64,000 nt of DNA from a virus: the IMG/VR virus record IMGVR_UViG_3300042527_000802, positions 53,481 to 117,480 of that record; one strand, given 5' to 3'. Under the pieces are notes generated by a model. The model was given only the letters and a program-made list of their open reading frames with translations, was not told where the DNA came from and did not search any database. The stretch's first letter is position 1, and each line of letters opens with the position of its first letter. Of this stretch, positions 6,905 through 60,157 are shown piece by piece. Position numbers and translations under genes: made by a program.

Positions 6905-7827
6905 TGCCACGATTTACACCAGACGAGTTATATAATAATTATAGAAAAGGATTTAGTGGCTGTTTATGGGAGCAGCATGTGTTTGATCATTTAATGGAAG
7001 TTAGTAAATACCCATTATTTGGCGATGCTAATAAAAAAATTAAAACTAGTGGCAAGGGCAAGTTATCAACTCCATACAAGAGCGTATTGAAGTTTGATAA
7101 GAATCCTTATAATGAAAGACAAACTACCGGAGATTGTGTCAGTCATGCAACACGAAATGCTTGTGATGTTAGTCGAGCAGTAGAAATAGATGTACATAAT
7201 GATAGAGAAGCTTGGATAGCAAGAGGAGCAACAGAAGCAATCTATGGAGCACGAGGTCATGGTGGACAAGGAATGAGTTGCTCACGAGCTGCTGAATTTG
7301 TTAGCAAGAATGGCGGTATAGTAATAAGAAAAAACTATAAGGGCGTAGTTGACTTTACTAAATATAATGGAAATCTAGGAGCTGGTTGGGGTGGACGAGG
7401 TTTACCTGATCCTGTTATTGATTTAGCTAATGATCATCAAATTAAAACTGTTAGTTTAGTAAGAACCATAGAAGAAGCGAGAGACGCTCTTGCAAATGGT
7501 TATGGATTATCAGTATGTTCGAATTATGGATTTAGTAATAAAAGAGATAAAAAGGGTATTGCTAACGTTAGTGGTAATTGGGCCCACGCTATGGCCTGGA
7601 TAGCCTGTGACGATACTGGAAATGAGCCATTATTCTTAGTTCAAAATAGTTGGGGCAAATGGAATGATGGTGGACATCCAGAATGGGGAAATATTCCAGA
7701 CGGTTCATTTCTTATCAGAGCCGAAGTTGCTGCTGGAATGTTGGCGGCTAATGGTAGTTATGCTTTCAGTAATTTTGATGGGTTCCCTGTGCAAAAATTA
7801 CCGGACTATGGTTTTACTTACCTATAA
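6904..7827 (+). CDS. Papain-like (C1-type) cysteine peptidase
   Basis: 307 aa. The papain catalytic set is visible in order: Gln73 in QTTGDCVSHA (oxyanion hole), Cys78 (nucleophile), His228 in NWAHAMAWI and Asn248 in QNSWG. These match the Q..C, H and NSWG signatures of family C1, including the Gly-Trp spacing after Asn. There is no signal peptide and no long inhibitory propeptide; about 70 residues precede Gln73. It sits between membrane proteins and a virion-type beta protein. It may mature virion proteins, or act on the host surface or host proteins. Family assignment is firm; the substrate is unknown. Confidence 0.8.
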   Translation: MPRFTPDELYNNYRKGFSGCLWEQHVFDHLMEVSKYPLFGDANKKIKTSGKGKLSTPYKSVLKFDKNPYNERQTTGDCVSHATRNACDVSRAVEIDVHNDREAWIARGATEAIYGARGHGGQGMSCSRAAEFVSKNGGIVIRKNYKGVVDFTKYNGNLGAGWGGRGLPDPVIDLANDHQIKTVSLVRTIEEARDALANGYGLSVCSNYGFSNKRDKKGIANVSGNWAHAMAWIACDDTGNEPLFLVQNSWGKWNDGGHPEWGNIPDGSFLIRAEVAAGMLAANGSYAFSNFDGFPVQKLPDYGFTYL

Positions 7828-43400: not shown

Positions 43401-44698
43401 TTGTCAATACTAATCATTGAAGTTAATCTCTGACTAATCTCTAAAACAAACATAAAGATTGCTTGTTGTTCTGCTTCTGGTGACGCAATTTTTCGAGGAA
43501 GTCGTTTACCTCCTTCAGCATCATATACGCTAAATGTTAATAAATTTTGCAATTCTAATATTGTACTACGATCATTATATAATATCTTTTCTAATAAACC
43601 CACAGTAGTACGATCCATATAGGGCATTGTTGATAGTATATGAGCTATCTTTTTAATTATTCTAGATTCTTTTAGAGGCAATAATGGTTTTGGTATTCTT
43701 TCTACGGTTTCGCCATTTTCTGTGACAATTTTTACTTTATCTATGCGTTTTTTATACTTAAAAATATCTGGCCCATCAGGAAGACCCAATGTTAATAGAT
43801 GATATATTTCTCTATATACTGGATGTAATACTGGTGATAAATATGATTTTGAAATTATATCATTTTTATATTGTTCTGATGCTAATTCTTCTGATTCTAT
43901 ATAACTATATGTGTCTCCATCTGGGATCCATATTGATAATGTTCCATCTGAAAATATATTGTTATTGCTTGAAGATTTGTATATAGAAAATTTTACATCG
44001 TCTATATTTATATTGTTGAATTTTAAATATCTACTAATGGAAAAATGTTTATTATGTACTGGTTTTATATTATTTTGATCATATGCGATTTTATCTTCTA
44101 TTATTAATAGTAGATCGTCTGTTTTTTTAATTAATTTTGTTGTTGGATTGATACTATTAATACCGTCATGATATTCTTTAATAGGCTTAACAATATCATA
44201 TGTATTAATATCTGCCATAGACTGTTTTTGAATGACAGAACTAGATTTTTTATACCAGAACATTAATCCATATTTAGGTATGAATGGCATCATTTCTGGG
44301 GTTAAAATCCAATTAACAGACATATAGGAACTTCCAGAGTCCCAATTTTGAAATTTTGGATCAAACCAAAAAGCTTTTTCTAATCCTATAGAATCTGGTA
44401 TAGAACTAGATCCTTTAAATAGCATTTTTGTTTCAATCTTACTATCTTTTACAGACACGAAACATGGAACCCATACGTCCTTTAATTCAACATTATTCCA
44501 TTTTTTATCTGTCGCTTCTATAGACGACACTATAAATTTGATCAATTCGTCCATATATACATTATATGAATCTAAAAAGGCGCCATCTTTATAATAGTCT
44601 ATTGTATCTGTTTTATTATTATATTTATATGGATATAGGTCATCTAAAAAATATTTATCATATAAGATACACTTATTTTGAGCATCCTTTTTTAGCAT
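37454..44698 (-). CDS. Giant virion structural protein (tail or baseplate), 2414 aa
   Basis: Start is the ATG at 44698 sharing a base with the upstream stop (TGATG). The only recognisable domain is an Ig/PKD-like beta domain at about 603-695 (EIEWTRISGPDCLRFSN). Charged coiled-coil stretches lie at about 1630-1680, 1800-1830 and 2080-2110. There is no enzyme motif. Length, mixed beta/coil make-up, and its position after another giant protein suggest a tail, baseplate or neck component. Family not recognised. Confidence 0.6.
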   Translation of the reverse strand: MLKKDAQNKCILYDKYFLDDLYPYKYNNKTDTIDYYKDGAFLDSYNVYMDELIKFIVSSIEATDKKWNNVELKDVWVPCFVSVKDSKIETKMLFKGSSSIPDSIGLEKAFWFDPKFQNWDSGSSYMSVNWILTPEMMPFIPKYGLMFWYKKSSSVIQKQSMADINTYDIVKPIKEYHDGINSINPTTKLIKKTDDLLLIIEDKIAYDQNNIKPVHNKHFSISRYLKFNNINIDDVKFSIYKSSSNNNIFSDGTLSIWIPDGDTYSYIESEELASEQYKNDIISKSYLSPVLHPVYREIYHLLTLGLPDGPDIFKYKKRIDKVKIVTENGETVERIPKPLLPLKESRIIKKIAHILSTMPYMDRTTVGLLEKILYNDRSTILELQNLLTFSVYDAEGGKRLPRKIASPEAEQQAIFMFVLEISQRLTSMISIDKHNNGSSGQNGLVTSKKDLFYRLLFKYGSKLVLFGDSAYITYKNKLKYGPHVKINHDAISRCTLEANNKLVYNNVKFQVGKFQVESKIGDKNTELVLSNQTIPGQQVTIPLWDIQKKNLTDQRISFTAGKDVEIDFLDPKIKNRTVNILDENNQVIGIKYREIEYELSDANVTLGDNFNVEVIIEDQPEIEWTRISGPDCLRFSNRKLSPTDTTSRYPTSYDYSPTLYIKRPGKYVLQMMAKTSFSLKYDIVTIHVTENNVYKRTEPLLVAETKFLSPQDNLIIMIPSIRECVFGKQGVFWPCYSDCSVKIPQAKEIAENINNLPQPGGSKIPIVVSLGQSYHKFAIPMPVDDKGNKVVEETDADLSIRYKCQDTIVEISRLILSYIMDNNDDCSQCESIYRSIPDNNGFILDAGYSFSFYDIPTDTIKDVSAPVSLSTKAARIKAYGGFSKNEIANLKLDIPFHPEPEKLLDKLELTEELLNTPTIDSENAALGKAIAHICHDTHHSYDASIEFSKGYFHPFSGWLSTYENPDFHNKTSVTNFKQNTNIQSFKGLGIYDLKNNFLDSKPVIYKSTITLQTDPEFLKVRKLPKGITFGVDDQIAHYGYRAASTDTSIKMLQYNDTYISDFAIESDSPVSSEEYCNDGLSLIEYNATYSMGQGGIGGSAYNIEIKLNHLNYTNPKELIVWIEIDACDKIASSLSPPSGPKEEGGVTINLSDPWYFNTETYTEQYKKIIQIKNTDVQNFMYRLWDMNDNDFVDNYIPDLTKQPGSNEDRNTILQKRKNKYYLYLLNQDHIHNFHINNNILFTDYCDKYYVAHNHNIINTSSLFIPYGIHRFRNNNVSPSVNGQILLSPTLSASNFSDTEIYRYKNIILNNNLYNSSHRFSKFKSMPLYDPTPGPESISNSSSTSFTLCIAVVGETESLEPFDRLRTTDASLGFIGSKIKNKSNLIDNSLCSWELLLHKADGLETYGKNSLNNIDYYNDKPVMSGYNFIANLENKTHLLPPINLNAPNMYTVDGRLCSYSKESLNIPSFAPPQTLNISPIIPLMPFTLIGALVSLSLVDSQLNQQAKDIANYLGSFRRGEQKELFNRSWFVPKYDRYPFGYSDKSLISVSKDQGQTWYKLEASIFKYNNSLTVKNNEYKFFKLHYKSLLRSLSIFKSLIPSDTDNFIRSCFQNHIRKISIDIGKEFENIPTKQHLIDDAKKIKQEIKQIEDQLKENPSEELSKELSDKNKQLTNILNTLNNIGYELEDGDIIELSEQSDENLNGMYVLSLDTTKRNTDNSFVKSLTKIYYIKDLCLSKNILQYNDLFSLTSSLNTNDNINLDVDLETLINTKKIAIINDIRAYHFFNNSEHKNIVSFSKKDQNDIDQEKLEELQSNLAQATDIYEITRIQNEIWDLTYNKYTNRIIGQGYVAINNDHKTILIFDKELLGTDISIEPEVSKRILITRNNFTGFHKDDSIPFDLWSNADHTKYNLSTPVDKTVSWGVGNYGYGSNLVRPYKISSQEINNQLRDISDIINTNKNSYFVSQSFKYKSSDDNSLIEGSTKSLGFQYSIENIISSQYNINNIINMIPNGNGDISENYRTQILEAFDRLYNSVVTRHNEHGNLIEVDTDISNGLDGTLIFKKDISTNLIYKIDTPSTIDDLKNRIKTIDKEIESEKDLKKLAILYKEKEEIIFYRDRVSSVSDYPHISVRVIVDPETKQMRFEENHHNDYYWINIDPDQSCSIDKDKTTKILKSVTFVCIPFNDKVTDLADQICVPNAAYGGTNEIDGIDEKVQARMWNTTYTLSDKNINEAKAKYPKLKWPDNDAIGEFVQREFFLNFAGIEKAQLVKATYEYILPVIDINVERPFTTTVQNKVYNIFNLDDINRLKVDFKRIPRMIKNKDTQYDIYEPNDRGQLSKSIIPSPGGPIDSTFKVWKCLDIESGAYVEPPLYYKWLNEMLFRAHFGSVDAIEHKGVMNSESKDETYWIPYDYN

Positions 44699-47600
44699 CA
44701 ACTAGTTCCTATTAAGATCCATGATCCATTTTCGTACATAAACATACCACGTTTTTTATCAGTTAATGTAAAATTAAATCTTGTATTATCAAAAACAATA
44801 TTTATTTTAGGAATATTATCTGCTGATTTAACACCTTGAATATAAGTTAAATCTGCAATAGCATTATTTCCTCCGAGCATAGATCCAAACACAATATATT
44901 GTTGTTTTGTAATAGGTTCATAATATCCAGTTTCCCTATCAAATCTACATAATATTTTAGCTCCTCTAGGAGCAGTATATCCACATCTATCTTTAATATA
45001 TATTAATTTTCTAGTATTTTCAGGCAATACATTTAAACTATATTCAGAATCATCCAAGAAACCTCTTGTTGGATATGTTTCATCAATACCATCAATTTTA
45101 GTCATATCTTCTTCTAATACAACATAAACTAATTTATATGGACATTTTTTACCACTATCTTTACTAGCAGTAGACAAATAAGCTGATAGAGTTTTGGTAT
45201 CATTACTTGCCGTTATTATAAATGGAGGATCTACTTCTCCACAACCTCCTTCTCCGCCAACCCAAACTTTTCTATCTCTATCCCATCTTAAATCTATCGG
45301 ACCTATTGGCCACAAGTCCGACCTTTCTGCCCAATTTAAATGAAATAAGTTCGTTGGATTTCTTTTCCAAATTCCATCTTCTTTTTTGTATCCTGATCCT
45401 ATTATATCTCCTAGTCCATAGTCTGATGTTGGAAGATATGCTCCGTCATTATCATAGTCATTGGTTCCAGACGATGTTAATCTGAATCTTAATGGTCTGC
45501 CTTCATTATCAAACGTTGCTGGTTCATCAGCTTGATTTGGCACTGGATATCCATCAGTATCAAATCCCCAACCATGTAACATCATTGGTCCACGAAATGC
45601 AAAAAATCTGTTATTTAGTAAGATTTTTTTATCTTCTTTACTAGTAAAAGATAAATCATACTTATAAAAATCTGGATTAACAAATTCTAAACTATTATAT
45701 TCCTCTCCAGCTTCTGTTAATTCTGTATTTGTATTCTTATTACCAGAATGTTGTATTAATGGTAAATTATTTGTAGTATCTAAACCAATATCTCCTATTT
45801 GATGAGAATCTTGACGCCCAACTATTCTAATATTATGTCTTGCTCTTTCTAATGGATTGATATACAATTGAGAACGAGGATTAATAAAATCGCCATATGG
45901 AACAACAATAGGATTCAATGATAAGAAATTAATATCAGGAGGAGATCCAGAATTTTCTGGACTACCAGTTGGAAAAATTAGTCTTGGCTTATTACAAACT
46001 GGACATGGATAATCAATTTCTTTTTCCTGTCCATTAAAATATCGAGAATATTTTACTATTTTAGTATTATTGCATTTAGGACACGTTACGTTATCCTCTT
46101 GTAATTCTGGAGTTATATATCTAGAAGATACTGGAAAGGTTCCTAAGTCTGTTGTTGGGAAAAATGACACAGGAGAGAAAATACCGTCTAAACTCATTGC
46201 TGCTTTGGTGCTAAAACCATATGATAGTTCAGCCAATGCTTCTCTTTCCATGAATCCGCCGATCCAAGATTTTGTTCTAGAAACATTCATATTATATAAA
46301 GATTCATCTTTTAAACTATTTCCAATAGACTCTCTTAATTTTTTATATTCTGTTGATTTTAATCCAGGATCACCACAGATAGGTAATCCAACATTAGGTA
46401 TATAATATTGAGCAGTACCTACTAAGCATTGCATTGGACTATTGCCGAATAGATCGCTTTTCCAGTCTGATTTTTGACTTGTATTTTTACCACGACTCTT
46501 TATAATTTTATCTATTTGTTGCGCAATTTTTTTATCCAAATCTCTTTGTGTTTTAGATAGTTTGCTTGCTAATTCTATTTTATTAGTAAGTATAAGTTTA
46601 TTTCTATCAGACATTTCTTTACTATACATACCAAGAGTAGGATTATATGTAGCAAATCTATAGATTGTTGAAATATTTCTATCAGAAACAGAGGTAGAAA
46701 TAGTAGATAATATTAAACCATTATAAGGATTAGCATTGCATTGTACTAAAGCATGATACTGATATCCCATAAATTTATTTGTTTTAATTTGATGAACATC
46801 AGAGTCTGTTAATTTGTATTGCAATCCTCCGCTTAAAGACATTAATGGCATTCCTGGCATACCAATTGTTCCATTCTCTAAAATCAATTGATATGAAGCC
46901 CCTGATTCTATTTGATTTATTATTTCTCTATCTAGAATAGACATTCCGCCGTAATTCCACGGAGCCCAATCATCATTTATTTTTAAATCTACATCATTAA
47001 TTAATTGTTCAATTAGCAGATTTTTATTTACAACACCAGGATATACTTTATAATTTGATAAGCTTAATAACCAAGGATAATTTGTCCATGGTCCATAACA
47101 ATTTTGATTATCTTTTAATGGAACAGCAGCGTAGAATGGGTGTGCTTTTCTTGGAGCAATAACTCTGTGTCTTTGTGTTACGTTAATCTTTTTATCTTGT
47201 AAGAAAAAGTCATCAACATTGCCAGTTGGAATAAAGTAAGTTGAAGCATCATTGGGGTTAGCCTCTGGATTTGGTTTAAGACCAATTATTCTAGATAATA
47301 ATATATTATATATATGTTCTAAAATCTTTGCGCAGGTTACTTCCTCGTCTTTATCTCTTGTTTTATGACCAGCTGGATCTTGATCTGTTATCCATAGCAT
47401 ATCTTTAGCTAAAATTCTAACAAAAGAATCCAATTGTTCTTTTTGTTGATCTGTAACAGCTTGTAGTTGCATCTTTTTTAGAATAGCATAATCTTCAGTA
47501 ACCGCATTATTAATAACAGTTAAGTTTGGATCTTCTTGATAAGACATACTAGTGAAGTATAAATCTACTCCAGGAGCATTCATTATAGCCCTAGGACATA

Positions 47601-50600
47601 ATAAATTAATAGGATCTAAAAAGATAATATCTCCATCGACCGTTGTTGGAAAATATACTTTATTAGTAGGTATAGGAATTATTTCATTAGTTGGTGGTTG
47701 ATAAAAAGTGGGTTCTGAACTATTTGGTTGTTTCTTACCAAATGTAACTGTTGTATTGCGTCCAATGACCCTATTTCCAAAAGGATCTTGTCTACCAGCA
47801 TCCGGGACTTGCACCATAACATAAGGATCTGCAACTGGTCCTAAGTCTAACGAAGGAACCATTAAATCACCACAGTTTGGTAAATATCTACTTAGTTGAT
47901 CTAATTGTTTACGACGATATGCAGCTTGTTTTTTTAATTGTTCAATTTTTTCTTTTTGTATATCATTTTTACCAATACCTAAGCCATCATCAGCATCTGC
48001 TATTTCTTCAGCTAAATCTGCTAATTCTTGATTAATTTGAGCCAAAGCCTTTTGTCTACGAGGCCCATCAAGATTGCACCATGCTTCTGTAACATAATCT
48101 TTGTTTAAGTTAGCATTATATCCAAGTATAGGTGGAATAGTTCCATTTTCATTACAAAGTTTAAAAAAGTTTGGCGTTCCTATAAGAATACTATCGTCTA
48201 TATAGTTTCCTGGTTCTTCCCAAGCACCGTCTACTAATTCTTTGTTTAAAAATATTTTACCACTACCTTGATAAACTGCTATTGTTGTTTCCGGATTAAT
48301 TGGCTGTTTCTTTTCTTTTGGTGGAACTGGTCCTACATCTTTTTCGTCATATGAAGAATCAACATTTCCTTGTGTACAGTTTGAGCCAAAAGTGGGAGTT
48401 GCAGCAACATAATCTGGCAAAGATATTCCTGCTAATGCTATTAAAGATAATATTTCTGGTTCAGATACATTTATGCCTTGCTGTCGTAATGCTTTTAATA
48501 ATGCTTTTAATAAAAGGCTAGGATCGTTGGCCGAACCAGATATAGATGATGCAACCGTGCCTAATATACTAGTTATTCTCTCTGTTAAAAGTTGTGTTCC
48601 AAAATCAGGATCATTGATTGAAATAATTGGTATTTGTATATCGGCATATTGTTGATCTCTATACTTTAAAATTTCTGGTAATCTAACAATATATTTTTTG
48701 CCATAAAACTCATCATGGATACCTTTTAAATATTCTACAATAATTTGTAAATCTTTAATGAATTCATGATTTAATACCCAATTAAAGTTATAATTCAATT
48801 GAAGATAAGCTGGATCTGGAGTATTGGCGATTTTTGCTGGATCGTCCTTTCCTGCTTGATTGTCTGCTTTACCAGGAGCATTATGACTACCCATACCTCC
48901 AACACCAAATAAGTTTGCCTTTGCGGCTGCTGCTGTTAAGAATAATTTTCCTTGAGATCTATATATTGAAACTAATTGAATAAATAAATCTGGTTTATTC
49001 ATAGGTAGTTTCATTAAACAATAAGCAAGATAACTTTCCCATCCATTTGCTGCTGCTCTCAACTCTGTTTCTGTTACAACAAAACCTATTTCGGATAGTG
49101 TATTTTCTGGATTTCTATATGGATTATTAATTGATTCTGTAGGATCTATACCATCTGATGCTGACGGAGGACTTCCATCTAGTTCTACTATTTCAGGATC
49201 GGCCGCCTTTGGAGTATTGTTAGGATCTGTTTTATTTTCATCCGTTCCACCCGGCGCTTGATTTCCTTGTATACCAGTATTAGAACCTGTTGTACTATTA
49301 GGGTTTACGAATCTAGTTTTATAAAGTGGTGGCAATAATCCCAAACTTAATGGTGGTAATTCATTTGGTCTAAAGCCTATCACTAAAATACCAGCCCATG
49401 TGTCTAAGTATACTGGTCTAGTAAATCTATAAAGATTAGATCCTCGTCCAGTATCTCCTAAGTTTATTTGTTGATCATAAGCATATCCAAAAAATGGACT
49501 AATAGCATGATGCCACAATGGAATATATCTAAATTCATCAGATTCTGTTTCTAAATTTTCTCCACAATATATTTCGCTATTTGGATCATCCACCAATATG
49601 TCTGAAGCATTTGCATTATCCATTTTTACAGTTTGCGCTGGCCAATAGTTTCCTATAAGTGGTTCAGCATATCCACCAACTGGTTTATCGACAAACCCTT
49701 GATCTGCTTCCAAAGGATCTATTAGCGAGCCTTCTGCTGCACTAGGGGCTGTGACGCCAGCATCACCTTCTGCCCCTTCCGCATTAGCCTCCATGTTTTC
49801 TTGATCAAATCCATTTTGATCATTGATAGCGGCTCCTTCAGCACTAAATACAACACCGCTATTAGCATCTACAAGTTCTTGTTCATTAGCAAATAGTCTA
49901 GTTATAATAGGACTATTAACGGCATTAGATAATGTTAAATTTCTAATAGAATAAGCCAATGGTAATTTATATGAATCAACCCATTTATCTTTTATGTCTA
50001 TTTTCCATACTATTCCTTTGTTTGTTTTAACCCCTTCGTCATCAGGAGTAGATTTGCCAAATCTATAATAATCAACAAATTTTTTCAACATTGGATGATA
50101 TACTAAATGGGTATTAGAATATCCTAACAATAAAGATTTTGTTTGAAATAGTCGTTGCTGATTAGCGCCAATATATAATATTCTTGGTTTAGCATCTTGA
50201 TTAACTTCTTTACCAAAAGAAGATTGTGAAACTGGCAATCCACTTTGCTCTAATGCTCTAACAGCATATTCTACGCTATTTGATGGAACTGTGACCGTTC
50301 TATCTACAGTCTTAACTTTAATATAGTTTTTTCCATCTTTTCTAATAACGGTAGTATAAAAATCTCTACCAGTTCTTTGACAGGCTTCTCTGATAATATC
50401 TAATATGTCCGCGTGACCCTCTCCTCCATTATATCTAACGTCTAACGGAGGTCTTGGAACCTCTGATAAGTCTAACAAAAATTCTACTCTGGGAATACCT
50501 TTTTGATCTTTAGTTGGAGGAATTATGCCAAAACCATAGTCTGTGCCAGAATATGCAAAATAAGCATTGATTGGATTAAGTTTATCGTCAGTCATTAAAG

Positions 50601-51681
50601 ATGGTGCTATAATTCTACCAAAAGGAGAAAATGCATTATGATATCCTAATTTATTCTTCTGTGTAGGAGCAGTATATCCTGGAAATATTTTGTCAAATTC
50701 TTTTTCGCTCTTATCAGTATTTCTTCCAGAAGATGATGTTAATACGCATAGACTATCAATAATATGGGCTAATGGAATACCGCCATTGTCATTATGATTA
50801 GATGTACCAAAACCATAACTTTCTAAAAAACCATATATATTAAAAACATTAGGAATATTTCCATATTTTGTTTGATTAAAATGATTAGCCTTACCAGAAT
50901 AATTTGTTGGACTACCAAAACTATCTGATCCAAAAGAGGTAAATACGGATCCTGCAAATTTGGATAAAATAACCTTACAATTTTTCAATAAATTATCTGC
51001 TGAACTAATTCTTATGGTATATGTTGGAGTGCCAACTCTATTATTACAATCCCAACTTTCTATAATTCCTCCAAATGTAAAATATCCAAATCTAAAATAA
51101 ACTGGTATACCTATTAGATTATATCTCCATTCTCCGGTGCTTAATAATCCATTTGGTGCTATTCTTGTTCTATTACCAAAAAATCCAGGATCAGTCCGTC
51201 TCCAATAATGTTGATCAATACTATCATTTGAGCATCTATGATAGACTTTTCCAGGAACAACTTTAATTTTACTAGGACCACTACAACTATCAAGACTTCT
51301 ATTAGGATTATATGGTAATCCAAATTCATCTATATAACAATTATTATTTATGCAATTATAATAGTGATTTACTACATCATAATCTGCATGTGTTTCACTT
51401 GGTTGCCTGCATTGACTATTAGGATTAAGAGGATCATATTGACCAGCTGTTAATCTGAAATTCAATGATGCTGGGTCCACTATTTGTATAACTTGAACAT
51501 CCGGTCTTGCATTACTTTCTCCCCATGCAAAGCATCCAAAATCGTCAGCAACCGTAACTGTTAAACTAGAGGCTGTTCCTCCCCATCCAGTATTAGAATT
51601 AAAGTCTACTATACTTGATCCTAAAAATAAATGTTGTGCTACAGTAGACGATCCGAACTCTGTGGTGCAAGTTAATGCCAT
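44698..51681 (-). CDS. Giant virion structural protein with baseplate-hub-like N-terminus, 2327 aa
   Basis: N-terminal beta-rich region with a FGGIIESWDC motif (near 207) and an ADILDIIREACQRTGRDFY helix (near 427); this combination resembles gpD/gp27-type baseplate hub proteins, but the match is weak. A charged coiled coil lies at about 1214-1264 and a four-Cys zinc ribbon (CPKC...CPVC) at about 1864-1899. Preceded and followed by structural genes with 1-2 nt spacing or overlap. No signal peptide. Confidence 0.6.
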   Translation of the reverse strand: MALTCTTEFGSSTVAQHLFLGSSIVDFNSNTGWGGTASSLTVTVADDFGCFAWGESNARPDVQVIQIVDPASLNFRLTAGQYDPLNPNSQCRQPSETHADYDVVNHYYNCINNNCYIDEFGLPYNPNRSLDSCSGPSKIKVVPGKVYHRCSNDSIDQHYWRRTDPGFFGNRTRIAPNGLLSTGEWRYNLIGIPVYFRFGYFTFGGIIESWDCNNRVGTPTYTIRISSADNLLKNCKVILSKFAGSVFTSFGSDSFGSPTNYSGKANHFNQTKYGNIPNVFNIYGFLESYGFGTSNHNDNGGIPLAHIIDSLCVLTSSSGRNTDKSEKEFDKIFPGYTAPTQKNKLGYHNAFSPFGRIIAPSLMTDDKLNPINAYFAYSGTDYGFGIIPPTKDQKGIPRVEFLLDLSEVPRPPLDVRYNGGEGHADILDIIREACQRTGRDFYTTVIRKDGKNYIKVKTVDRTVTVPSNSVEYAVRALEQSGLPVSQSSFGKEVNQDAKPRILYIGANQQRLFQTKSLLLGYSNTHLVYHPMLKKFVDYYRFGKSTPDDEGVKTNKGIVWKIDIKDKWVDSYKLPLAYSIRNLTLSNAVNSPIITRLFANEQELVDANSGVVFSAEGAAINDQNGFDQENMEANAEGAEGDAGVTAPSAAEGSLIDPLEADQGFVDKPVGGYAEPLIGNYWPAQTVKMDNANASDILVDDPNSEIYCGENLETESDEFRYIPLWHHAISPFFGYAYDQQINLGDTGRGSNLYRFTRPVYLDTWAGILVIGFRPNELPPLSLGLLPPLYKTRFVNPNSTTGSNTGIQGNQAPGGTDENKTDPNNTPKAADPEIVELDGSPPSASDGIDPTESINNPYRNPENTLSEIGFVVTETELRAAANGWESYLAYCLMKLPMNKPDLFIQLVSIYRSQGKLFLTAAAAKANLFGVGGMGSHNAPGKADNQAGKDDPAKIANTPDPAYLQLNYNFNWVLNHEFIKDLQIIVEYLKGIHDEFYGKKYIVRLPEILKYRDQQYADIQIPIISINDPDFGTQLLTERITSILGTVASSISGSANDPSLLLKALLKALRQQGINVSEPEILSLIALAGISLPDYVAATPTFGSNCTQGNVDSSYDEKDVGPVPPKEKKQPINPETTIAVYQGSGKIFLNKELVDGAWEEPGNYIDDSILIGTPNFFKLCNENGTIPPILGYNANLNKDYVTEAWCNLDGPRRQKALAQINQELADLAEEIADADDGLGIGKNDIQKEKIEQLKKQAAYRRKQLDQLSRYLPNCGDLMVPSLDLGPVADPYVMVQVPDAGRQDPFGNRVIGRNTTVTFGKKQPNSSEPTFYQPPTNEIIPIPTNKVYFPTTVDGDIIFLDPINLLCPRAIMNAPGVDLYFTSMSYQEDPNLTVINNAVTEDYAILKKMQLQAVTDQQKEQLDSFVRILAKDMLWITDQDPAGHKTRDKDEEVTCAKILEHIYNILLSRIIGLKPNPEANPNDASTYFIPTGNVDDFFLQDKKINVTQRHRVIAPRKAHPFYAAVPLKDNQNCYGPWTNYPWLLSLSNYKVYPGVVNKNLLIEQLINDVDLKINDDWAPWNYGGMSILDREIINQIESGASYQLILENGTIGMPGMPLMSLSGGLQYKLTDSDVHQIKTNKFMGYQYHALVQCNANPYNGLILSTISTSVSDRNISTIYRFATYNPTLGMYSKEMSDRNKLILTNKIELASKLSKTQRDLDKKIAQQIDKIIKSRGKNTSQKSDWKSDLFGNSPMQCLVGTAQYYIPNVGLPICGDPGLKSTEYKKLRESIGNSLKDESLYNMNVSRTKSWIGGFMEREALAELSYGFSTKAAMSLDGIFSPVSFFPTTDLGTFPVSSRYITPELQEDNVTCPKCNNTKIVKYSRYFNGQEKEIDYPCPVCNKPRLIFPTGSPENSGSPPDINFLSLNPIVVPYGDFINPRSQLYINPLERARHNIRIVGRQDSHQIGDIGLDTTNNLPLIQHSGNKNTNTELTEAGEEYNSLEFVNPDFYKYDLSFTSKEDKKILLNNRFFAFRGPMMLHGWGFDTDGYPVPNQADEPATFDNEGRPLRFRLTSSGTNDYDNDGAYLPTSDYGLGDIIGSGYKKEDGIWKRNPTNLFHLNWAERSDLWPIGPIDLRWDRDRKVWVGGEGGCGEVDPPFIITASNDTKTLSAYLSTASKDSGKKCPYKLVYVVLEEDMTKIDGIDETYPTRGFLDDSEYSLNVLPENTRKLIYIKDRCGYTAPRGAKILCRFDRETGYYEPITKQQYIVFGSMLGGNNAIADLTYIQGVKSADNIPKINIVFDNTRFNFTLTDKKRGMFMYENGSWILIGTS

Positions 51682-51682
51682 A

Positions 51683-53611
51683 TTAATGATCCATATAATT
51701 TATATTTGTTAAGCATTGTTGATAAACCCATGTTACTGTCCTTGAAAATCTTCCCTCTGTAGGATTCCATGTTTCTTGGTCGCTTTGTACAAATACTGTT
51801 CCTGGTATATTTGTTCTGGCGGCATTCGTACCAAATATAATAGCATTACGATAACTAAAAGGCTTGTTTCCTTCTATTAATTCGCTTATTTGTCTTCTTA
51901 GTATTGTATTAATACCTACTGGACAAGTACTATAATTTTCTAGCATTCCAGCATCATCAACAGGTGGTTGTATTACAACATCTACTGTAATTGTTTTTCT
52001 AGCATTTGTTCGACCAATTGCTTGTAATAATGGGCCAAGATAACGGCCAATAATTTGTGTTTCTGATATATTATCTGCTGGAGCATCATGTGTTATATTA
52101 ATATTTTCACTAATTACTCCAGGAAATACTTTATATTTATTATTAAATTCATAAGTATATGATATTGTACCATTTAATGGATCGTGTCCTTCTGATGTGC
52201 TAACAGGAATATTTGATAATGCTCTTTCATCATAATATGTTGGACTTATTCCTTTTTGTGGATCTTGAACTAAATTCGGCCTGTTCGCTCTTGTTCCAGT
52301 ATTAATCCCTAAACAAGCTCTTCTGTACAAATATGGTTTGATCTCTTTTTCCCAGGCATTATAAGCATTTGTATATTTATCGTTTTCAATATTAGTATTC
52401 GTAGAATTTGTTCCGTCAACACTAGCCAATTCTCGCTGTGATCCTGGCTGAGTATCATTAGGATTACTTTGTCCACTAGTTAAGCTTAATATTAATCCAC
52501 TTCCATTATTATTAGAATTAGGTTGCAGATAATGATTTCCAGAAGTTGCCATGTGAGAAGGTTTATGTAGTGCTAATCCATTAATATTACCAACAACTCG
52601 TACTGTTTTAGTAAAATTGTCAGTTGTTCCACATTCTATAGTATATTTTTCAGTATGTCCAATACCTGTTGGCATTGCTATCCAATTATCTGTAATTTCA
52701 TAAGTTCCATTGTAAGCATCTGCTGATACCGAACGAATATGATTATATAGAAAAGTGTTTCCTGACGCGCCATTTGTTGCTAATACATTTATTGTTCCAT
52801 TAGGATTAGTTCCAAAAGATTTTGCTGATTGATTTTCTACCCAATTTTTTGCATTTAATAATTTAATAGCATTAATACCTTCTATATTATTAACACATGT
52901 TGAATTTGTATTAGATGGTGGAATAGGCAATCCTTTTGCTGATAATCTTCTGGTTATTCTATATTGTGGAGTTTGTTTCATTTGGAGAGGATGTGGTACT
53001 GTTCCATCTGTAGATGTTCCATTAATAAATGCTTGTCCTGGAACTGATCTGGTTATATTTGGTTCAGTCGGAAGCATATTAGGGGCTAAATATTCAGGAC
53101 CTGATGCTACATTTACATTTCTTTCAACGTATTGAGCATCTTCTATTTGTTCTATTGTCCATGATTCTGATTTATTTTCAACAGGATCTGAGCCGCTTTG
53201 GAATACTTCTCTAGAGTCTAGGGTAATAGTATAATCAGCAAACCTAACCCAGTTATTATCGCTCTTATCTACTTGAAATTGTCTTACAGATACTCCGGAA
53301 GATTGGTATAGTTTAACATTATCACATTCTATATAAAAATTTCCTAATGAGCATTTTCTAACTAATGCTTCTAAACTCTTAATTTTGTCCGTAATACTAG
53401 ATAATCCTGTTGTTACAATTTTACCAGTTAAATTAATAGTAGTGCTAATAGACATTGGAATATTATCTTCAGCATTATAGCTTTTACTTATATCAACAAA
53501 AGGAGTCGGCCCAGTGATTAAAGCAATATCTTCATCAAATAATGAAACCTTAACTTTTGAAGGGGTAGGCGAGCCGGCCAGACTATTGAACAGTGCTATA
53601 TTATTTAACAA
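51683..53611 (-). CDS. Tail or baseplate structural protein, 642 aa
   Basis: Translation most likely starts at TTG (53611): an AGGAG lies eight bases upstream and no in-frame ATG occurs nearby. Beta-rich protein with repeated short strands (KVKVSLFDEDIALITG, NNWVRFADYTITLDSREV) and a C-terminal domain with YKVFPGVISENINITHD and TITVDVVIQPP. This style is typical of phage tail or baseplate proteins. It lies 1 nt from the giant hub-like gene. Family not recognised. Confidence 0.6.
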   Translation of the reverse strand: MLNNIALFNSLAGSPTPSKVKVSLFDEDIALITGPTPFVDISKSYNAEDNIPMSISTTINLTGKIVTTGLSSITDKIKSLEALVRKCSLGNFYIECDNVKLYQSSGVSVRQFQVDKSDNNWVRFADYTITLDSREVFQSGSDPVENKSESWTIEQIEDAQYVERNVNVASGPEYLAPNMLPTEPNITRSVPGQAFINGTSTDGTVPHPLQMKQTPQYRITRRLSAKGLPIPPSNTNSTCVNNIEGINAIKLLNAKNWVENQSAKSFGTNPNGTINVLATNGASGNTFLYNHIRSVSADAYNGTYEITDNWIAMPTGIGHTEKYTIECGTTDNFTKTVRVVGNINGLALHKPSHMATSGNHYLQPNSNNNGSGLILSLTSGQSNPNDTQPGSQRELASVDGTNSTNTNIENDKYTNAYNAWEKEIKPYLYRRACLGINTGTRANRPNLVQDPQKGISPTYYDERALSNIPVSTSEGHDPLNGTISYTYEFNNKYKVFPGVISENINITHDAPADNISETQIIGRYLGPLLQAIGRTNARKTITVDVVIQPPVDDAGMLENYSTCPVGINTILRRQISELIEGNKPFSYRNAIIFGTNAARTNIPGTVFVQSDQETWNPTEGRFSRTVTWVYQQCLTNINYMDH

Positions 53612-53680: not shown

Positions 53681-56600
53681 TTAATTACATGGATTATTTT
53701 CATTATAGGCCAATGGCATAGGATCCTTAATTGATATTGCATTTCCAGTACCAAGATAGCCAACGCTAGTCCAAGAACCTATCGGTAAAGTGGTGCAAGT
53801 TGTTGGTAGGGCGGTTTCATTCCATGTACTTAGAGGAGATGAACTGTAATCACTGTAATCTACAAATTCTGGATCCAATAATTGAGGAACCCCACCTGTA
53901 GTAAGCTCTAATATATAATATGTTTGTAAAGCATTAGATACTATTTTTCCTAAATGCCATTTATCTTCTATAAATCTTATTTGAATAGAATCATCATTAA
54001 CGTTAATATATCTATTATTATTTGAGTCATGAGCATATTGGCCTAAGAATTCGGTTCCAGATTGTCCATTAGCCTCCCATATTCTGATATTGTTTACAGC
54101 AAATATATAAATACCAGCTAAAGAACTTTCAAACGCTGCTGAATCACATGGTATAAGTCTAGCCCATGCTATATTTTGATTGTTAGGATTCTTTGACCAA
54201 TATAGATCAACTCCTGGCCATTTTCTAGTAATAATATTATTATCTAATTCAACAAAGTTAAATTTAGAATTTACCCACGATCTAAAATTATCAGGATTGG
54301 AAACACCTGTATAATTGATATATATCACTTGATTTCTTGATGCTGTGTATACATTCCCAGAAGATACATTATCTAATTTAATAAATGGATATACATTATT
54401 TGATAATCCAGAATATAGTACTTGGATACCTGTAATGTTTTCAGTTGTAAAATATGTATTATCTGGTCTAGCAACGCTATCTCCACATGCAAAATCAGCA
54501 TTAATATAAGACCCAGCACAAGAACCACTAATAGTAGTAAATCCTGTTGTGACTGGACTTAAGAAATCAAATTCATTACATGTTGTACCTGATGTTCTAC
54601 ATGAAAAACTAAATGTTATCCATGCTTCCATATCTGTCTTATTTCTCAATAGTTGAGTTTCATCCAGAGTATATCCACCAGAAATCGAATACTTGTTGTA
54701 TTGTTGTCTTATGCCAGTAAAATTTCCTATATTTATTCCATAAGTACTATTGTCAAATGGTAAACCACTAGCAGAAGTTCTGTAGCAGAATCCCATGTAG
54801 TCTAACTTTGTTGATACTCCGGTAATTTTCGTGGTCGTATCATATAAATTATATATAGGAGGATTATTTGTTATGCCACTTAGTCTAATAGAATTTGACC
54901 CAGACATGGATGTGGCATATCCACTGACAGAAAGATTACTTGATGGATTCCAACTAAATGGACCCAATGTTTCCCATCCTTTAGAGTATTTTGATCCACT
55001 AACTCTATGTCCACCAGCATCGGTAACTACCCAATCATTATATTCATGTCTCCATCTGATTGGTAAATTAAATCCTAATACGCTTCTATGTCCTGACCCT
55101 GTGGGTAATGGATTCTGATTACTAGCGTCAGTAGGTGGCTGTATAGCAGAGAATACGAATCTAGTAGGAAATGCAAATACTCCACTAAGATTTGATCCAG
55201 AATTGCCCAATCTGGCTACTTCTACATATCCATTGTATGTAGGCTCATTATGTGTTTCGGCTAAGCTAATAATTTTTTGATTATGTCTACTAGATGAAAC
55301 ATCGTTATATGATGCTAATGATGTTTGTGTCATCGTTGTATTTAGTTGCCAAGTGTCTGTTGAGTTCTTCCAGTCGAATACATATACTCCACTAAATATT
55401 GGATCATAAGGTATCTTGATCTCTATTCTTGACGATAAATTAGTTTGTGGTGGGGTTCCACTTAATACGACATAAGCATTTGATGGTGGATTATTTTCTT
55501 GTATGATTCCATAGTATGGGGATAACAAAGATATTGGGTGCGTAATTCTGCTATCAGAACATACTAAATTAGGATCATCCCAAAAAGTTAATGACGTATG
55601 AGGACAACAAGATTGACATTCTAAAGCATTTAATCCTGATGGGGTTGGTGATGGAGTTAATGAAACTGTGGGAGTAACTGTTTTAGTTACAGATATTGTT
55701 GGTGTTATTGATGAGGTTAATGTTGGAGTTCTTGTTAGTGTTTTAGTTAATGAGACTGTTGGAGTAACTGTTTTAGTTACAGATATTGTTGGTGTTGGAG
55801 TTTGTTCCCAAGGAAATATTCTTGTTGCAGTAACCGTTGGAGTTACGGTGACAGTTTTTGTTGGAGTAGGAGTTCTTGTTAATGCAATACTCTTAGTTGG
55901 AGTAGGACTAAATGCTACTGTTCTAGTAGGAGTAACTGTTTTTGTTGGAGTAACTGTTTTGGTTTTAGTTGGGGTTGGAGTTGATCTAGTTCGTGTTGGA
56001 GTTGCTGTCTTAGTTGGTGTTTTTGTTTTAGTTGGAGTAGGAGTTTGTGTTTTGGTTTTAGTTGGGGTCGGACTTTGTTGCCACGGCGGTAATCTTGTTG
56101 GAGTAACTGTCGGAGTTATTGGTGGTAGTGGAGGATTGCATACATAAGAAGTAATAAACTGTCCATCTCCAATTATTGTTGCGACATTACATCGTGGAAT
56201 ACCATTAATATCATATATAGACGATCCTGCTGGTAATGAAACTTGTGTTGGATAATCCCAATACCCGGCATTGGTTGATCCTCCTTTATAATAACCGGCT
56301 TTATACCATTCATGAATATTAGGTAAATAGTATTTAGCGTTATCATTTTTATTAATAAATGGACCACTAGTTGTACCATATAAAGAATATGCTCCATCTT
56401 CTGTGGTAAGATTATTCATTGTTCCATTTGGTTGATTATTATGCAGCCAATTACAGTATCTAGCAGCAGAGAACCAACTTAAAAATACAACAGGCTTACT
56501 ACCCATATTAGACTTAACATAATAAGTATATGGAATATTTGAAGATGGGTTATATAATCTACCAATCCCGCCAGCAATATCAGTATCCATTTTTGAATCA

Positions 56601-59600
56601 TATACTTCAAAAGCGTCTGAGTCAGAATATCTGGCAACACTATTCAAAAAATCAGCATATTGACAATTTGTAATAGGATATTTTCCTATTTTATAAACAT
56701 ATGATACAGATCCGACTGTTTCTGTTGAAGATAAATTGGGATTAGTTTTAAATCCAATATTATTTGGATCTCCAACTGATACAAATTCTGGTCCGAGTGT
56801 TATATTTTCTTTAGATACTATTCTAAAACCTATATTATTATTTTTTCTATTAGGCATAGTACCCAGATCGTTAATTACAATTAGATTTTTTATCGATAAA
56901 TATATTCTATCATCTATTGGGGTATTATAGGCGCCACCAAAAACTCTGGGCCATCCAAAACTAAATCCCATTGTATTTGACCACTCCCATACTTGGCCAG
57001 CCTGATCATAAGTGCCATATGCGCTTCTGCCACCATTACTACCAACGCTTGTTAAATTTCCTTCTGTTGAATTATTCCAATTAGCGCATGTTGCCCAATT
57101 AGCATAATGAGCAGACAGTTTATTTGTTTGAGATGGGGTGACAGTTCTTGTTGGTGTTATTGTTTGCGTTTTAGTTGGGGTCGGAGTTATAATTGATATG
57201 CAACTAAGTATTGGCGGTGGATTTATACCACCATCTCCACTAAATGTTTGGGCTATGGGATTAATAATAGCATTACTTTGAGTAGCATATGTCCAGTATG
57301 TTGTATTTATTGGATTATAAAAACCAGCTTTGATCCATTCATTCTCAGATGGAATATAATATGTAGAAATATTAAATCGTTTAGATATCCACGCCACATT
57401 CCACAGCACATCGGGATATGTAATTTGATAGACTCCATCTTCTGTGGTTTGGTTCGATATAGATCCCACTGGCTTTCCATTATGTAACCAATTGCAATAT
57501 CTTGCAGCATTTACCATATCTATATTATTCATTGGCTTATTATTAAATACAGGATCGACAACACTATAAGTATAACTTCCTCTATTGCCTGTTCTAACTA
57601 TAGTATCAAATCCACTTTGATGACCTGACCATATAACATCATCAATTAAATTATCCTGACTAATATCGGTTTTAGCAATACTATTTAAAAATTCTACATA
57701 TTCGCATTGTGTCACTAAAAATTTACTGATATAATACTCATATGATACTGATCCTATAGATCTATTAGTAAAGGGAATTGCTGGTGGATTATTTGGATTT
57801 GCAACCCATACAAAATTATTTAAATTTAATGGATTATTCAAGGAGCATATTCTAAATCCTCTGTGTAGCGCACCCACTCGATAAGAACCTTCAGTATATC
57901 CAGGACTAGGTATTGTTGCTATAATAGGAGTCAATTGTTCGCGTGATGAAAGATAACTACCTCCATATAATTTTACTATTGGGTTGAACGGATTAAGATT
58001 TTCACCATTATGGGTCCATTCTTCTAATAATCCGCATTGATCATAAGTTCCATAATAACTTGGCCCACCATTTGTTCCAACAGTTGTTATATTGGTTGTT
58101 TGCCAATTGCCATATTGATCTTTATAATACCAAGTTATACGACGGCAGATTTCATCAAAGCAACCGAAATTGGCGGAGTTATATGATCCTACTACGCCAT
58201 TATCACGAGTTTTTGTTGGAGTAGGAGTTTTAGTTTGTGTTGGTGTTGAAGTAATATTCTTAGTTTTAGTTGGTGTGACAGTTGGGGTGGTGGTGTTAGT
58301 TTTGGTAACCGTTGGAGTCGGAGTTAAATTACTTGATTTTGTTACAGTCTGAGTAGGAGTACGAGTTGGAGTAACTGTTGGAGTTTTAGTTATTGTGGGT
58401 GTTTGAGTTGGAGTTGGAGTAATGTCTAAAGTTGTTAATCTTGTAATAGATAATATCTGTCCAGTGTATGGATTATATTCTACTTTCTTATAGACGCTGT
58501 CATATGTTCGCCCGTCATTAATTCTAAATCTTGTTTTATAAATAAATTGCCATACTGGACCAGATACTTGATAACTAAATGGCAAAATTCGTTTATCTTC
58601 AATAAGCCTATCATTATCGTCTGTTCTCCATGTTATTGCTTGCATATTTTTTGCATTAGGAGACGAGAATTCTGGAGAGCATGTATATATTGTTGAATTT
58701 TGTTGTCCCAATGAATTATATGTTATTATTTGTGCATCAAGTATATCTGATGTTTGAAATATTGGATAACTTGTAGAAATAACAGTTGTGAACAACCAAT
58801 ACGTACCTATATAAGCGTTTGCATTAGGCGCTGGTGGAGTTAAATTTGTATTCCATGGAAATCCACCATAGTCTCCCCAATAATCATATCCATATCTAAT
58901 AGATATAGGGGCGGATACAGTTATTTTGGCCGGTGTTGGGGTAGATGTTGGAGTTTTACTTTTTGTTGGAGTTAAACTTTTTGTTATTGTTGGAGTTGCA
59001 GTTATTGTGCGAGTTGGTGTTCTTGTTGGAGTCTGGGTTCTTGTATGAGTTGGTAGAGGAGGAAGTGGAGTTGCAATATTAGTGCATGGTACTATTGTGG
59101 ACTGAGCGATATTATTTATAACATTTTCAATCCAATCCGTTCTATATAAACTTATACTATCTCTCATAATTTGAACTTGACTATTAGAAAACATATACAG
59201 ATCGATATCGTCTGTATAATCCATAAAATTCATAAATAATGTACCATTAACTTTATCACAAGAATTTGTTGTATATGGATACGTCACATCTCCACGAGTA
59301 GGGCCGGTTTGATCTGGCAAATCCGCTGGACTAGAGCAGCATCTTCCGGGCGCACCACAACACGTTGCATAATTATTTGCTGCACATTGCTCATAAAAAT
59401 TTGGCCCTGCTCCACAACACCAACTATGACTTAATCCTAACCAGTGACCTATTTCATGAGTTAATGTTCTTCCTCTACTATATCTAGTGTTCCTAGGATT
59501 GATATTTGGTCTTCTTAAACTACCAATAGTAGTTGAATCAACTATAACTCCATCATTTCTAGCCCAATAACTTAATTCCATAGCATTAAAATCTGATAAA

Positions 59601-60157
59601 CTTTTCCATCCTGGTGGAGTTTGATCGTCATTATAATATTGAAACCAAGGGAAATATGCTATTCCTAATAAACCAGCATCTAATATATTACCAACCCAAA
59701 TATTTAATGGTTTTATACCATTATCTAGTTGTAAAGTTGGATCTATTCCTCCTTGCGGTGAAGCATATTTTATAGCATCAACTCCAAAGTATGATTCCCA
59801 CTCAGCACTGATTCTGCGGTTAATTCCAGCTAAAGTAAAATTGATTCCAGCACCCCTAGACATGTATCTACAAAATGCTGATGGTAATTGTGTAACGCTA
59901 GTAGTAGTAGCATTAAAATTACTGTTTAGTTCAAACATTTGTTCTTGTACTTGAGCATCAGTAATCTCTGTATATGCCAGACTAGGATTAATCAAAATAT
60001 TGAATACAACCGGTATTGTTACAGTAGTATTTGAATTAGGATCCCATATTCTAGACGATTCATTTAATGTACGTAACGGTAAATACCTACTAGCATATGC
60101 TATATTTGGAAAATCTTCAAATATTTTATCTATTCCACATCTATTTATATTATCCAT
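53681..60157 (-). CDS. Modular adhesin: pappalysin-type metalloprotease, two permuted FGE-like domains, beta modules
   Basis: 2158 aa. Residues 1-345: M43 pappalysin-type metalloprotease with HEIGHWLGLSH (His234, Glu235, His238, His244) and a Met-turn NFMDYTDD. Then Thr/Pro linker (369-411); a beta domain (411-575); linker (576-652); FGE-like copy A (about 657-964); linker (989-1011); FGE-like copy B (1014-1307); long linker (1345-1506); and a C-terminal 650-residue part paralogous to the protein at 7840-10152. In both FGE-like copies the RGG/GFR half precedes the YCNWLHN half. It is probably a virion fibre that cuts or binds host surface protein and glycans. Confidence 0.8.
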   Translation of the reverse strand: MDNINRCGIDKIFEDFPNIAYASRYLPLRTLNESSRIWDPNSNTTVTIPVVFNILINPSLAYTEITDAQVQEQMFELNSNFNATTTSVTQLPSAFCRYMSRGAGINFTLAGINRRISAEWESYFGVDAIKYASPQGGIDPTLQLDNGIKPLNIWVGNILDAGLLGIAYFPWFQYYNDDQTPPGWKSLSDFNAMELSYWARNDGVIVDSTTIGSLRRPNINPRNTRYSRGRTLTHEIGHWLGLSHSWCCGAGPNFYEQCAANNYATCCGAPGRCCSSPADLPDQTGPTRGDVTYPYTTNSCDKVNGTLFMNFMDYTDDIDLYMFSNSQVQIMRDSISLYRTDWIENVINNIAQSTIVPCTNIATPLPPLPTHTRTQTPTRTPTRTITATPTITKSLTPTKSKTPTSTPTPAKITVSAPISIRYGYDYWGDYGGFPWNTNLTPPAPNANAYIGTYWLFTTVISTSYPIFQTSDILDAQIITYNSLGQQNSTIYTCSPEFSSPNAKNMQAITWRTDDNDRLIEDKRILPFSYQVSGPVWQFIYKTRFRINDGRTYDSVYKKVEYNPYTGQILSITRLTTLDITPTPTQTPTITKTPTVTPTRTPTQTVTKSSNLTPTPTVTKTNTTTPTVTPTKTKNITSTPTQTKTPTPTKTRDNGVVGSYNSANFGCFDEICRRITWYYKDQYGNWQTTNITTVGTNGGPSYYGTYDQCGLLEEWTHNGENLNPFNPIVKLYGGSYLSSREQLTPIIATIPSPGYTEGSYRVGALHRGFRICSLNNPLNLNNFVWVANPNNPPAIPFTNRSIGSVSYEYYISKFLVTQCEYVEFLNSIAKTDISQDNLIDDVIWSGHQSGFDTIVRTGNRGSYTYSVVDPVFNNKPMNNIDMVNAARYCNWLHNGKPVGSISNQTTEDGVYQITYPDVLWNVAWISKRFNISTYYIPSENEWIKAGFYNPINTTYWTYATQSNAIINPIAQTFSGDGGINPPPILSCISIITPTPTKTQTITPTRTVTPSQTNKLSAHYANWATCANWNNSTEGNLTSVGSNGGRSAYGTYDQAGQVWEWSNTMGFSFGWPRVFGGAYNTPIDDRIYLSIKNLIVINDLGTMPNRKNNNIGFRIVSKENITLGPEFVSVGDPNNIGFKTNPNLSSTETVGSVSYVYKIGKYPITNCQYADFLNSVARYSDSDAFEVYDSKMDTDIAGGIGRLYNPSSNIPYTYYVKSNMGSKPVVFLSWFSAARYCNWLHNNQPNGTMNNLTTEDGAYSLYGTTSGPFINKNDNAKYYLPNIHEWYKAGYYKGGSTNAGYWDYPTQVSLPAGSSIYDINGIPRCNVATIIGDGQFITSYVCNPPLPPITPTVTPTRLPPWQQSPTPTKTKTQTPTPTKTKTPTKTATPTRTRSTPTPTKTKTVTPTKTVTPTRTVAFSPTPTKSIALTRTPTPTKTVTVTPTVTATRIFPWEQTPTPTISVTKTVTPTVSLTKTLTRTPTLTSSITPTISVTKTVTPTVSLTPSPTPSGLNALECQSCCPHTSLTFWDDPNLVCSDSRITHPISLLSPYYGIIQENNPPSNAYVVLSGTPPQTNLSSRIEIKIPYDPIFSGVYVFDWKNSTDTWQLNTTMTQTSLASYNDVSSSRHNQKIISLAETHNEPTYNGYVEVARLGNSGSNLSGVFAFPTRFVFSAIQPPTDASNQNPLPTGSGHRSVLGFNLPIRWRHEYNDWVVTDAGGHRVSGSKYSKGWETLGPFSWNPSSNLSVSGYATSMSGSNSIRLSGITNNPPIYNLYDTTTKITGVSTKLDYMGFCYRTSASGLPFDNSTYGINIGNFTGIRQQYNKYSISGGYTLDETQLLRNKTDMEAWITFSFSCRTSGTTCNEFDFLSPVTTGFTTISGSCAGSYINADFACGDSVARPDNTYFTTENITGIQVLYSGLSNNVYPFIKLDNVSSGNVYTASRNQVIYINYTGVSNPDNFRSWVNSKFNFVELDNNIITRKWPGVDLYWSKNPNNQNIAWARLIPCDSAAFESSLAGIYIFAVNNIRIWEANGQSGTEFLGQYAHDSNNNRYINVNDDSIQIRFIEDKWHLGKIVSNALQTYYILELTTGGVPQLLDPEFVDYSDYSSSPLSTWNETALPTTCTTLPIGSWTSVGYLGTGNAISIKDPMPLAYNENNPCN
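55640..56122 (-). repeat. Long Thr/Pro-coding repeat linker
   Basis: About 160 residues of TPT(K/R)T-type repeats, including two near-identical SVTKTVTPTVSLT stretches. It is the longest of the linkers in the window and joins FGE-like copy B to the C-terminal beta modules. Confidence 0.85.
57125..57190 (-). repeat. Thr/Pro-coding repeat linker between FGE-like copies
   Basis: A short linker of about 22 residues in the TPTPTKTQTITPTRTVTPS style separates FGE-like copy A from copy B. Confidence 0.7.
58200..58430 (-). repeat. Thr/Pro-coding repeat linker
   Basis: About 77 residues of TPTxTxTPT repeats before FGE-like copy A. Confidence 0.8.
58925..59050 (-). repeat. Thr/Pro-coding repeat linker after metalloprotease
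   Basis: About 42 residues of TRTPTRT-type repeats joining the metalloprotease domain to the next beta domain. Confidence 0.75.

Follow-up and report, generated by a model that had tools for sequence, protein, structure and literature searches.

A phage protein joining a pappalysin-type metalloprotease to circularly permuted FGE-like modules: a candidate tail adhesin

The gene and its parts

The stretch of DNA analysed here, called the window below, is 64,000 nt long and covers positions 53481-117480 of the linear 117480-base virus record IMGVR_UViG_3300042527_000802. Its minus strand carries a gene for a protein of 2158 amino acids (aa), which is the subject of this report. An earlier note, made from the letters of the sequence, had described the protein as a pappalysin-type metalloprotease joined by Thr/Pro linkers to two FGE-like domains and a large beta domain. 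The open reading frame (ORF) is real and complete, and that list of parts is largely right by Pfam, by phmmer and by the Thr/Pro runs; what had gone unseen is that both FGE-like regions carry their C-terminal half (C-half) ahead of their N-terminal half (N-half). We regard the following anatomy as nearly certain (coordinates are those of the window).

53681..60157, minus: whole gene of the 2158-aa protease-adhesin, a complete ORF with an ATG start
60056..60157, minus: pro-segment at the N-terminus, aa about 1-34; its Cys7, in 'NRCGID', is a putative cysteine switch, and a signal peptide is absent
59123..60055, minus: M43B catalytic domain, aa about 35-345; zinc site at nt 59426-59458, Met-turn at nt 59207-59236
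58907..59101, minus: Thr/Pro linker 1, aa 353-417, by composition
58457..58906, minus: Domain X, aa about 418-567, no Pfam or PHROG match
58187..58456, minus: Thr/Pro linker 2, aa 568-657, by composition
57209..58168, minus: permuted FGE-like module 1, aa about 664-983, C-half then N-half, by half-domain profiles
56198..57127, minus: permuted FGE-like module 2, aa about 1011-1320, C-half then N-half, by half-domain profiles and an AlphaFold2 (AF2) model
55628..56158, minus: long Thr/Pro linker 4, aa about 1334-1510, by composition
53681..55627, minus: C-terminal module, aa about 1511-2158, of no known family; paralogue of the protein encoded at 7840-10152

A Pfam scan of the whole protein gave FGE-sulfatase at 61.2 bits (cut-off 23.3), matched over three stretches, and Peptidase_M43 at 24.1 bits (cut-off 23). 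In the Pfam and PHROG scans Domain X had no match beyond those of the linkers. Thr/Pro-rich runs lie at aa about 353-417, 568-657, 984-1014 and 1334-1510, and the record encodes many other Thr/Pro-linked fibres. A 159-aa plus-strand ORF at 55668-56147 is the antisense of the long linker and an artefact. A cluster of sugar genes (L010:3522-16478, contig about 22.5-35.5 kb) encodes a PfkB kinase, a cytidylyltransferase-like protein, an epimerase, two DegT aminotransferases and a GFO_IDH_MocA protein, and could serve to glycosylate the Thr/Pro linkers. The C-terminal module is 52-56% identical to a stand-alone protein of the same phage; the module had no match in the PDB, and its paralogues had none in Pfam.

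The metalloprotease and its putative cysteine switch

The earlier claim of a complete pappalysin-type protease is supported. The zinc motif HExxHxxGxxH is present as HEIGHWLGLSH at aa 234-244, the Met-turn reads FMNFMDYTDD at aa 308-317, and the Tyr switch, Y314, stands two residues past M312. A phmmer search of the PDB with the 2158-aa protein matched ulilysin and mirolysin at E about 1e-16. Alignment A4 sets the domain beside 17 M43 proteins of viral contigs (18 sequences); in it the zinc ligands, Glu235, Met312, Asp313 and Tyr314 are invariant, and so is Cys7 of the pro-segment. The predicted model of the M43 region is of moderate quality (pLDDT 69, pTM 0.79); Foldseek places it with ulilysin (E 1.6e-18, TMt 0.81) and with the zymogen promirolysin, the latter over 353 columns with TMt 0.77 and a TMq of 0.67 versus 0.60 for the mature enzymes. 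In A4 the phage domain also shows a Cys-rich insertion past the zinc site. With the reference residues taken from PMC11674741, the extra Cys leave the second canonical disulphide pair ambiguous, and the calcium-site Thr appears to be aligned with Leu.

In mirolysin, an N-terminal Cys caps the catalytic zinc until the pro-segment is removed, which is known as a cysteine switch, and the enzyme matures through self-cleavage (PMC8259862); the switch mechanism is also described in PMC6949598. From this mechanism and the conservation of Cys7, one would expect Cys7 to cap the zinc of the phage enzyme in the same way. The phage protein has no signal peptide, its N-terminal hydropathy being 0.33 versus 2.2-3.4 in viral M43 proteins that bear one. 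A hydrophobic signal peptide precedes the Cys in many of the viral M43 proteins of about 400 aa that were found, and phage M43 proteins in three other loci (L127, with two copies, L213 and L230) likewise go without. Because Cys7 of the 'RCG' pro-segment is invariant and there is no signal peptide, the protein looks like a zymogen that is synthesised in the cytosol in latent form. Its M43 domain is likely to be an active enzyme once that latency is relieved, judging from the residues it has kept.

FGE-like modules with reversed halves

Each FGE-like region consists of a C-half, running from GxYDxxGxVxEW to GFR, then a few residues, then an N-half, running from VTNxxYxxFLN to EWYKAAYY. The fusion and the family named by the earlier note stand, and the order of the halves has to be added to them. 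In PDB chains of the FGE family the N-half comes first in the alignments, and the order of PF03781 is found in neither of the two modules here. The order was scored with half-domain profiles on proteins that had been matched by a full-length search. The first viral search kept 33 loci from 34 relatives, and its phage proteins have the C-half before the N-half. The second, limited to the best 80 of 236 relatives and ranked in a way that favours the query's own half order, also gave C before N, apart from a few proteins that were partial or mixed, for example one with the order CNNC (L180). In the bacterial search the same bias works against the result, and the proteins in 80 bacterial loci, mostly from Planctomycetota and Verrucomicrobiota, have N before C. 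After removal of duplicates there were 98 viral C-N modules versus 100 bacterial N-C modules. A tree of 92 phage and 97 bacterial modules splits the two classes with four label changes, compared with a mean of 63 for shuffled labels.

Exactly one C-half followed by one N-half is found in most of the phage proteins, 42 in the first search and 53 in the second, many of which end at the N-half, and the spacing from C to N is a few residues in nearly all copies. One such protein is encoded in the window itself:

3331..4707, plus: 458-aa paralogue ending in exactly one permuted FGE unit (C-half, then N-half), by profiles

The lone C-N protein on a bacterial contig (L095) directly follows genes for GP46, Baseplate_J and Mu Gp48, and therefore sits in the tail-fibre position of a Mu-like prophage. 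The reversed order was thus seen in phage sequences and in no bacterial module examined except the one in this prophage. Some bacterial proteins contain tandem N-C-N-C units, and these are a plausible source of the permuted form through loss of the outer halves.

AF2 predicts module 2, as a C-N unit alone, to be one compact domain (pLDDT 87, pTM 0.90) whose helices and strands coincide with the positions of the FGE motifs. Against a permuted FGE fold stands the Foldseek search of this model in the PDB and BFVD, which returned no FGE-like match. The permutation may defeat the search, or the model may be wrong; the same pipeline placed the M43 domain correctly. The assignment of an FGE-like fold rests on the sequence profiles.

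Catalysis by these modules was considered and rejected: none of 95 phage modules has two Cys after the conserved GG, which we take from human FGE to be the position of the active-site pair, and only 1 of 97 bacterial modules does.

The tail-region slot

Downstream of the gene, on the same strand, lie two large genes whose order is kept in related phages.

51683..53611, minus: 642-aa neighbour, syntenic tail-region protein, with matches in 13 of 21 related records
44698..51681, minus: 2327-aa neighbour, syntenic tail-region protein, with matches in 15 of 21 related records

By peptide patterns, neither the M43 domain nor the neighbours of 642, 2327 and 2415 aa had any close relative in viral contigs, and searches of whole records brought up distant homologues of the 642- and 2327-aa proteins. 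The 642-aa homologue directly precedes the 2327-aa homologue in nine examined records. Where the region is visible whole, the tape measure is followed by the fibre, then by several adhesin-like genes, and then by the 642-aa and 2327-aa homologues; a minimal record (G009) has the tape measure, the fibre and the two homologues. The slot directly upstream of the 642-aa homologue holds a permuted-FGE protein with Thr/Pro repeats and without an M43 domain in five of nine examined relatives (L253, L256, L258, L259 and L260). In a further relative (L257), the same slot is taken by a trypsin-like protein that falls below the Pfam cut-off; across four homologues, the His, Asp and GDSG columns are conserved. 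Because relatives hold permuted-FGE, Thr/Pro-rich adhesins at the same place, the slot is supported as one for a tail adhesin. Synteny thus supports the virion-type protein of the earlier note, as a putative tail protein, the gene lying beside the 642- and 2327-aa genes in a region that in related phages is downstream of the tape measure; we consider a location in the tail quite probable.

Three other observations may be added. A tape-measure-like ORF at the start of the contig (L009:2-400) contains repeats of 'GDGYARDAERRKRQ', an actin-like protein is encoded near the putative tail genes at 61913-62914 (Pfam Volactin, 213.7 bits, E 5.9e-63), and the 642-aa homologue of one related record (G026) has a TAG inside it.

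Proteases beside permuted modules in other phages

The M43 domain was found in only 1 of the 34 records with permuted-FGE genes, and the exact fusion of the two is therefore unique so far. The earlier note had proposed a search for the same fusion in other phages; this exact combination did not turn up, and a related one did. In a 323-kb phage record with a terminase (G035), from a jumbo phage unrelated to the present lineage, a 1009-aa protein (L244:6698-9733, L235/L244) fuses a trypsin-like domain with the motifs HV...DxALV...GDSGS to a permuted FGE module. In another record (L041), a trypsin-like gene adjoins a permuted-FGE gene. With the M43 fusion here and the trypsin-like fusion and neighbour elsewhere, the pairing of a protease with a permuted lectin occurs, as judged from motifs and profiles, with two types of protease.

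A DNA motif search gave 31 viral stretches with M43-like zinc sites, among them those of the 323-kb phage. This phage has two tandem genes that join M43 to Thr/Pro runs, one copy of which was scanned and has fibronectin type III domains by Pfam, and M43 proteins of 1131-1135 aa occur in other records, with SprB repeats in the one scanned. Three adjacent M43 ORFs were also seen in a 149-kb viral record (G047, L234). The terminase match of the 323-kb record (G035:C1:274697-276265) contains one in-frame TGA.

A proposed role and its rivals

We lean, by a little more than an even chance, towards the view that the 2158-aa protein serves as a tail adhesin and that its latent protease, of pappalysin type, trims a protein layer of the host. 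It would be a fibre-type adhesin of a tailed phage, with the metalloprotease at its N-terminal end. Having no signal peptide, it would be made in the host cytosol and kept inactive by Cys7 of its short pro-segment capping the catalytic zinc, and the two permuted FGE/C-type-lectin-like modules together with the C-terminal module, spaced by Thr/Pro linkers, would provide tail anchoring, binding to the cell surface, or both. Once outside the cell, the pro-segment would be displaced or cleaved, and the protease so freed may cleave a protein at the surface or in the surroundings of the next host cell, making the receptor accessible. That the target is a host protein layer is itself a close call, which we put slightly short of even. 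The idea of the earlier note that an S-layer, sheath or pilus is cut may draw some indirect support from the trypsin-like proteases that other phages fuse to permuted-FGE modules or carry in the same slot.

Several observations weigh against this proposal. With M43 present in so few of the permuted-FGE records, it is not a core part of the tail, and the searches made brought up no close relative of the tail-region proteins with the M43 fusion in another isolate. The 642- and 2327-aa neighbours by themselves match no PHROG family. No terminase was recognised in the record, a linear fragment whose tail region appears to be split between its two ends and rearranged relative to the relatives. Finally, one canonical M43B disulphide pair is apparently lost, both of its Cys being replaced by Asp in A4. 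This last point, together with the Cys-rich insertion past the zinc site, could suggest that the M43 domain has degenerated into an inactive binding module, but the domain keeps every zinc His residue, Glu235, Tyr314 and the Met-turn, and its fold matches active pappalysins, so that we find this idea hardly credible.

A more serious competitor, though still an unlikely one, is that the protease acts on the phage itself, in maturation or release, and trims its own or neighbouring fibres, for example at their Thr/Pro linkers, during assembly or adsorption without cutting any host barrier. Timed processing of this kind would be well served by an enzyme that is made in the cytosol as a latent zymogen, Thr/Pro-linked fibres are plentiful in the record, and mirolysin does cleave itself to mature (PMC8259862). 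But 33 of the 34 records with permuted-FGE fibres have no M43, so these fibres do not need it, and the trypsin-like protein of the slot and the trypsin-like fusion elsewhere match variation directed at hosts better than a conserved processing step. One could also imagine an effector unrelated to the tail that works within the infected cell or right at its outside, as an aid to lysis or against defence; the want of a signal peptide would fit, and latency through the Cys switch could shield the infected cell. The adhesin architecture, the tail-region slot and the tail-fibre position of the prophage gene speak against it and make it rather improbable. A last rival is the view that the modules are ordinary FGE domains split by Thr/Pro linkers, N-half 1 pairing with C-half 2, with no permutation at all. 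A short Thr/Pro linker does lie between those two halves, and the Foldseek search with the permuted model came back without an FGE-like match. Yet insertion of a linker into a normal domain fails to explain the many phage proteins, the one at 3331-4707 among them, that hold exactly one C-half and one N-half, nor does it fit the few-residue gap from C to N or the compact prediction for the C-N unit alone. We therefore rejected this view, to which we would give little chance.

If the proposal of a tail adhesin with a latent protease is right, it has some wider meaning. Known tail-borne enzymes mostly cut polysaccharide or peptidoglycan, and a true protease carried in latent form on a tail adhesin would offer a rarely considered route through protein coats. 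As a tentative and rather doubtful extension, the permuted C-type-lectin/FGE domain may be a standard tail-adhesin module of this phage lineage, to which interchangeable proteases, a latent M43 or a trypsin-like serine protease, are in some phages fused or set in the same slot, making the tail tip a targeted protease against host protein coats. The permuted modules are also a natural circular permutation with many examples, and their reversed half order is a clean sequence marker with which phage adhesins could be flagged in metagenomes.

Other proteases and genes of the record

Two further genes of the window lie side by side on the plus strand.

6904..7827, plus: papain-like (C1) peptidase, a core gene of the lineage and not part of the adhesin, by motifs and conservation
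7840..10152, plus: 770-aa paralogue of the C-terminal module, encoded on its own and immediately following the papain-like gene, by sequence identity

The papain-like protein reaches 18.3 bits for Peptidase_C1, under the Pfam cut-off of 20.7, with the Cys, His and Asn motifs visible. The earlier note had enlisted it as a partner of the metalloprotease in cutting a barrier, and this part of its interpretation was not supported, while the protease-FGE fusion and, by synteny, the tail protein were. The gene is nearly universal in the lineage and 77-85% identical across it, compared with 34-41% for the 642-aa neighbour in the same phages, and four small proteins with hydrophobic stretches precede it. 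As a core gene of such high identity in such a setting, it more likely serves a conserved function, and it gives poor support to barrier cutting, for which it should not be counted.

A subtilase (S8) is encoded at contig 13205-14116 (L009), downstream of fibre genes, and 8 of 11 records, the present one included, have matches of the same family. The DNA polymerase III alpha gene is split into ORFs 23854-25728 and 26582-28192, which an exonuclease-like gene and a small ORF separate; no intein motifs were seen by eye.

Comparison with known systems

Our literature search, partly a loose one, found no paper on phage pappalysins or on permuted FGE. The FGE/SUMF1-like domains (PF03781) of Planctomycetota and Verrucomicrobiota share the same motifs and up to about 45-48% identity in matched segments; the phage halves are reversed relative to them, and the FGE-type Cys pair is also missing in most of these bacterial relatives. 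The variable proteins of diversity-generating retroelements (DGRs), such as TvpA (PDB 2y3c), belong by profile to the same superfamily as the phage modules and have a C-type-lectin fold (PMC5006420, PMC6328139). The phage order is permuted relative to theirs, and a DGR origin for the lectin-like domains was rejected, as no reverse transcriptase (RVT_1) was found in the present record or the 33 related ones, which are possibly fragments.

On the protease side, cytophagalysin is likewise an M43B enzyme in which a pro-segment and catalytic domain are joined to many beta domains; it is a secreted bacterial enzyme with Ig-like domains, and the part of PMC11674741 consulted mentions neither FGE nor Thr/Pro modules in it. 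With the M43B pappalysins mirolysin and ulilysin (PMC11674741), the phage enzyme has in common the zinc site, the Met-turn, the Tyr switch, an N-terminal Cys pro-segment and the predicted fold. It differs from them in going without a signal peptide, in being fused to an adhesin of roughly 1800 aa, in its insertions, one of them rich in Cys, and in the apparent loss of a disulphide pair. The components are thus of known kinds, an M43B zymogen and an FGE/C-type-lectin adhesin, and what is new is a variant of these, with the FGE/C-type-lectin part in permuted form.

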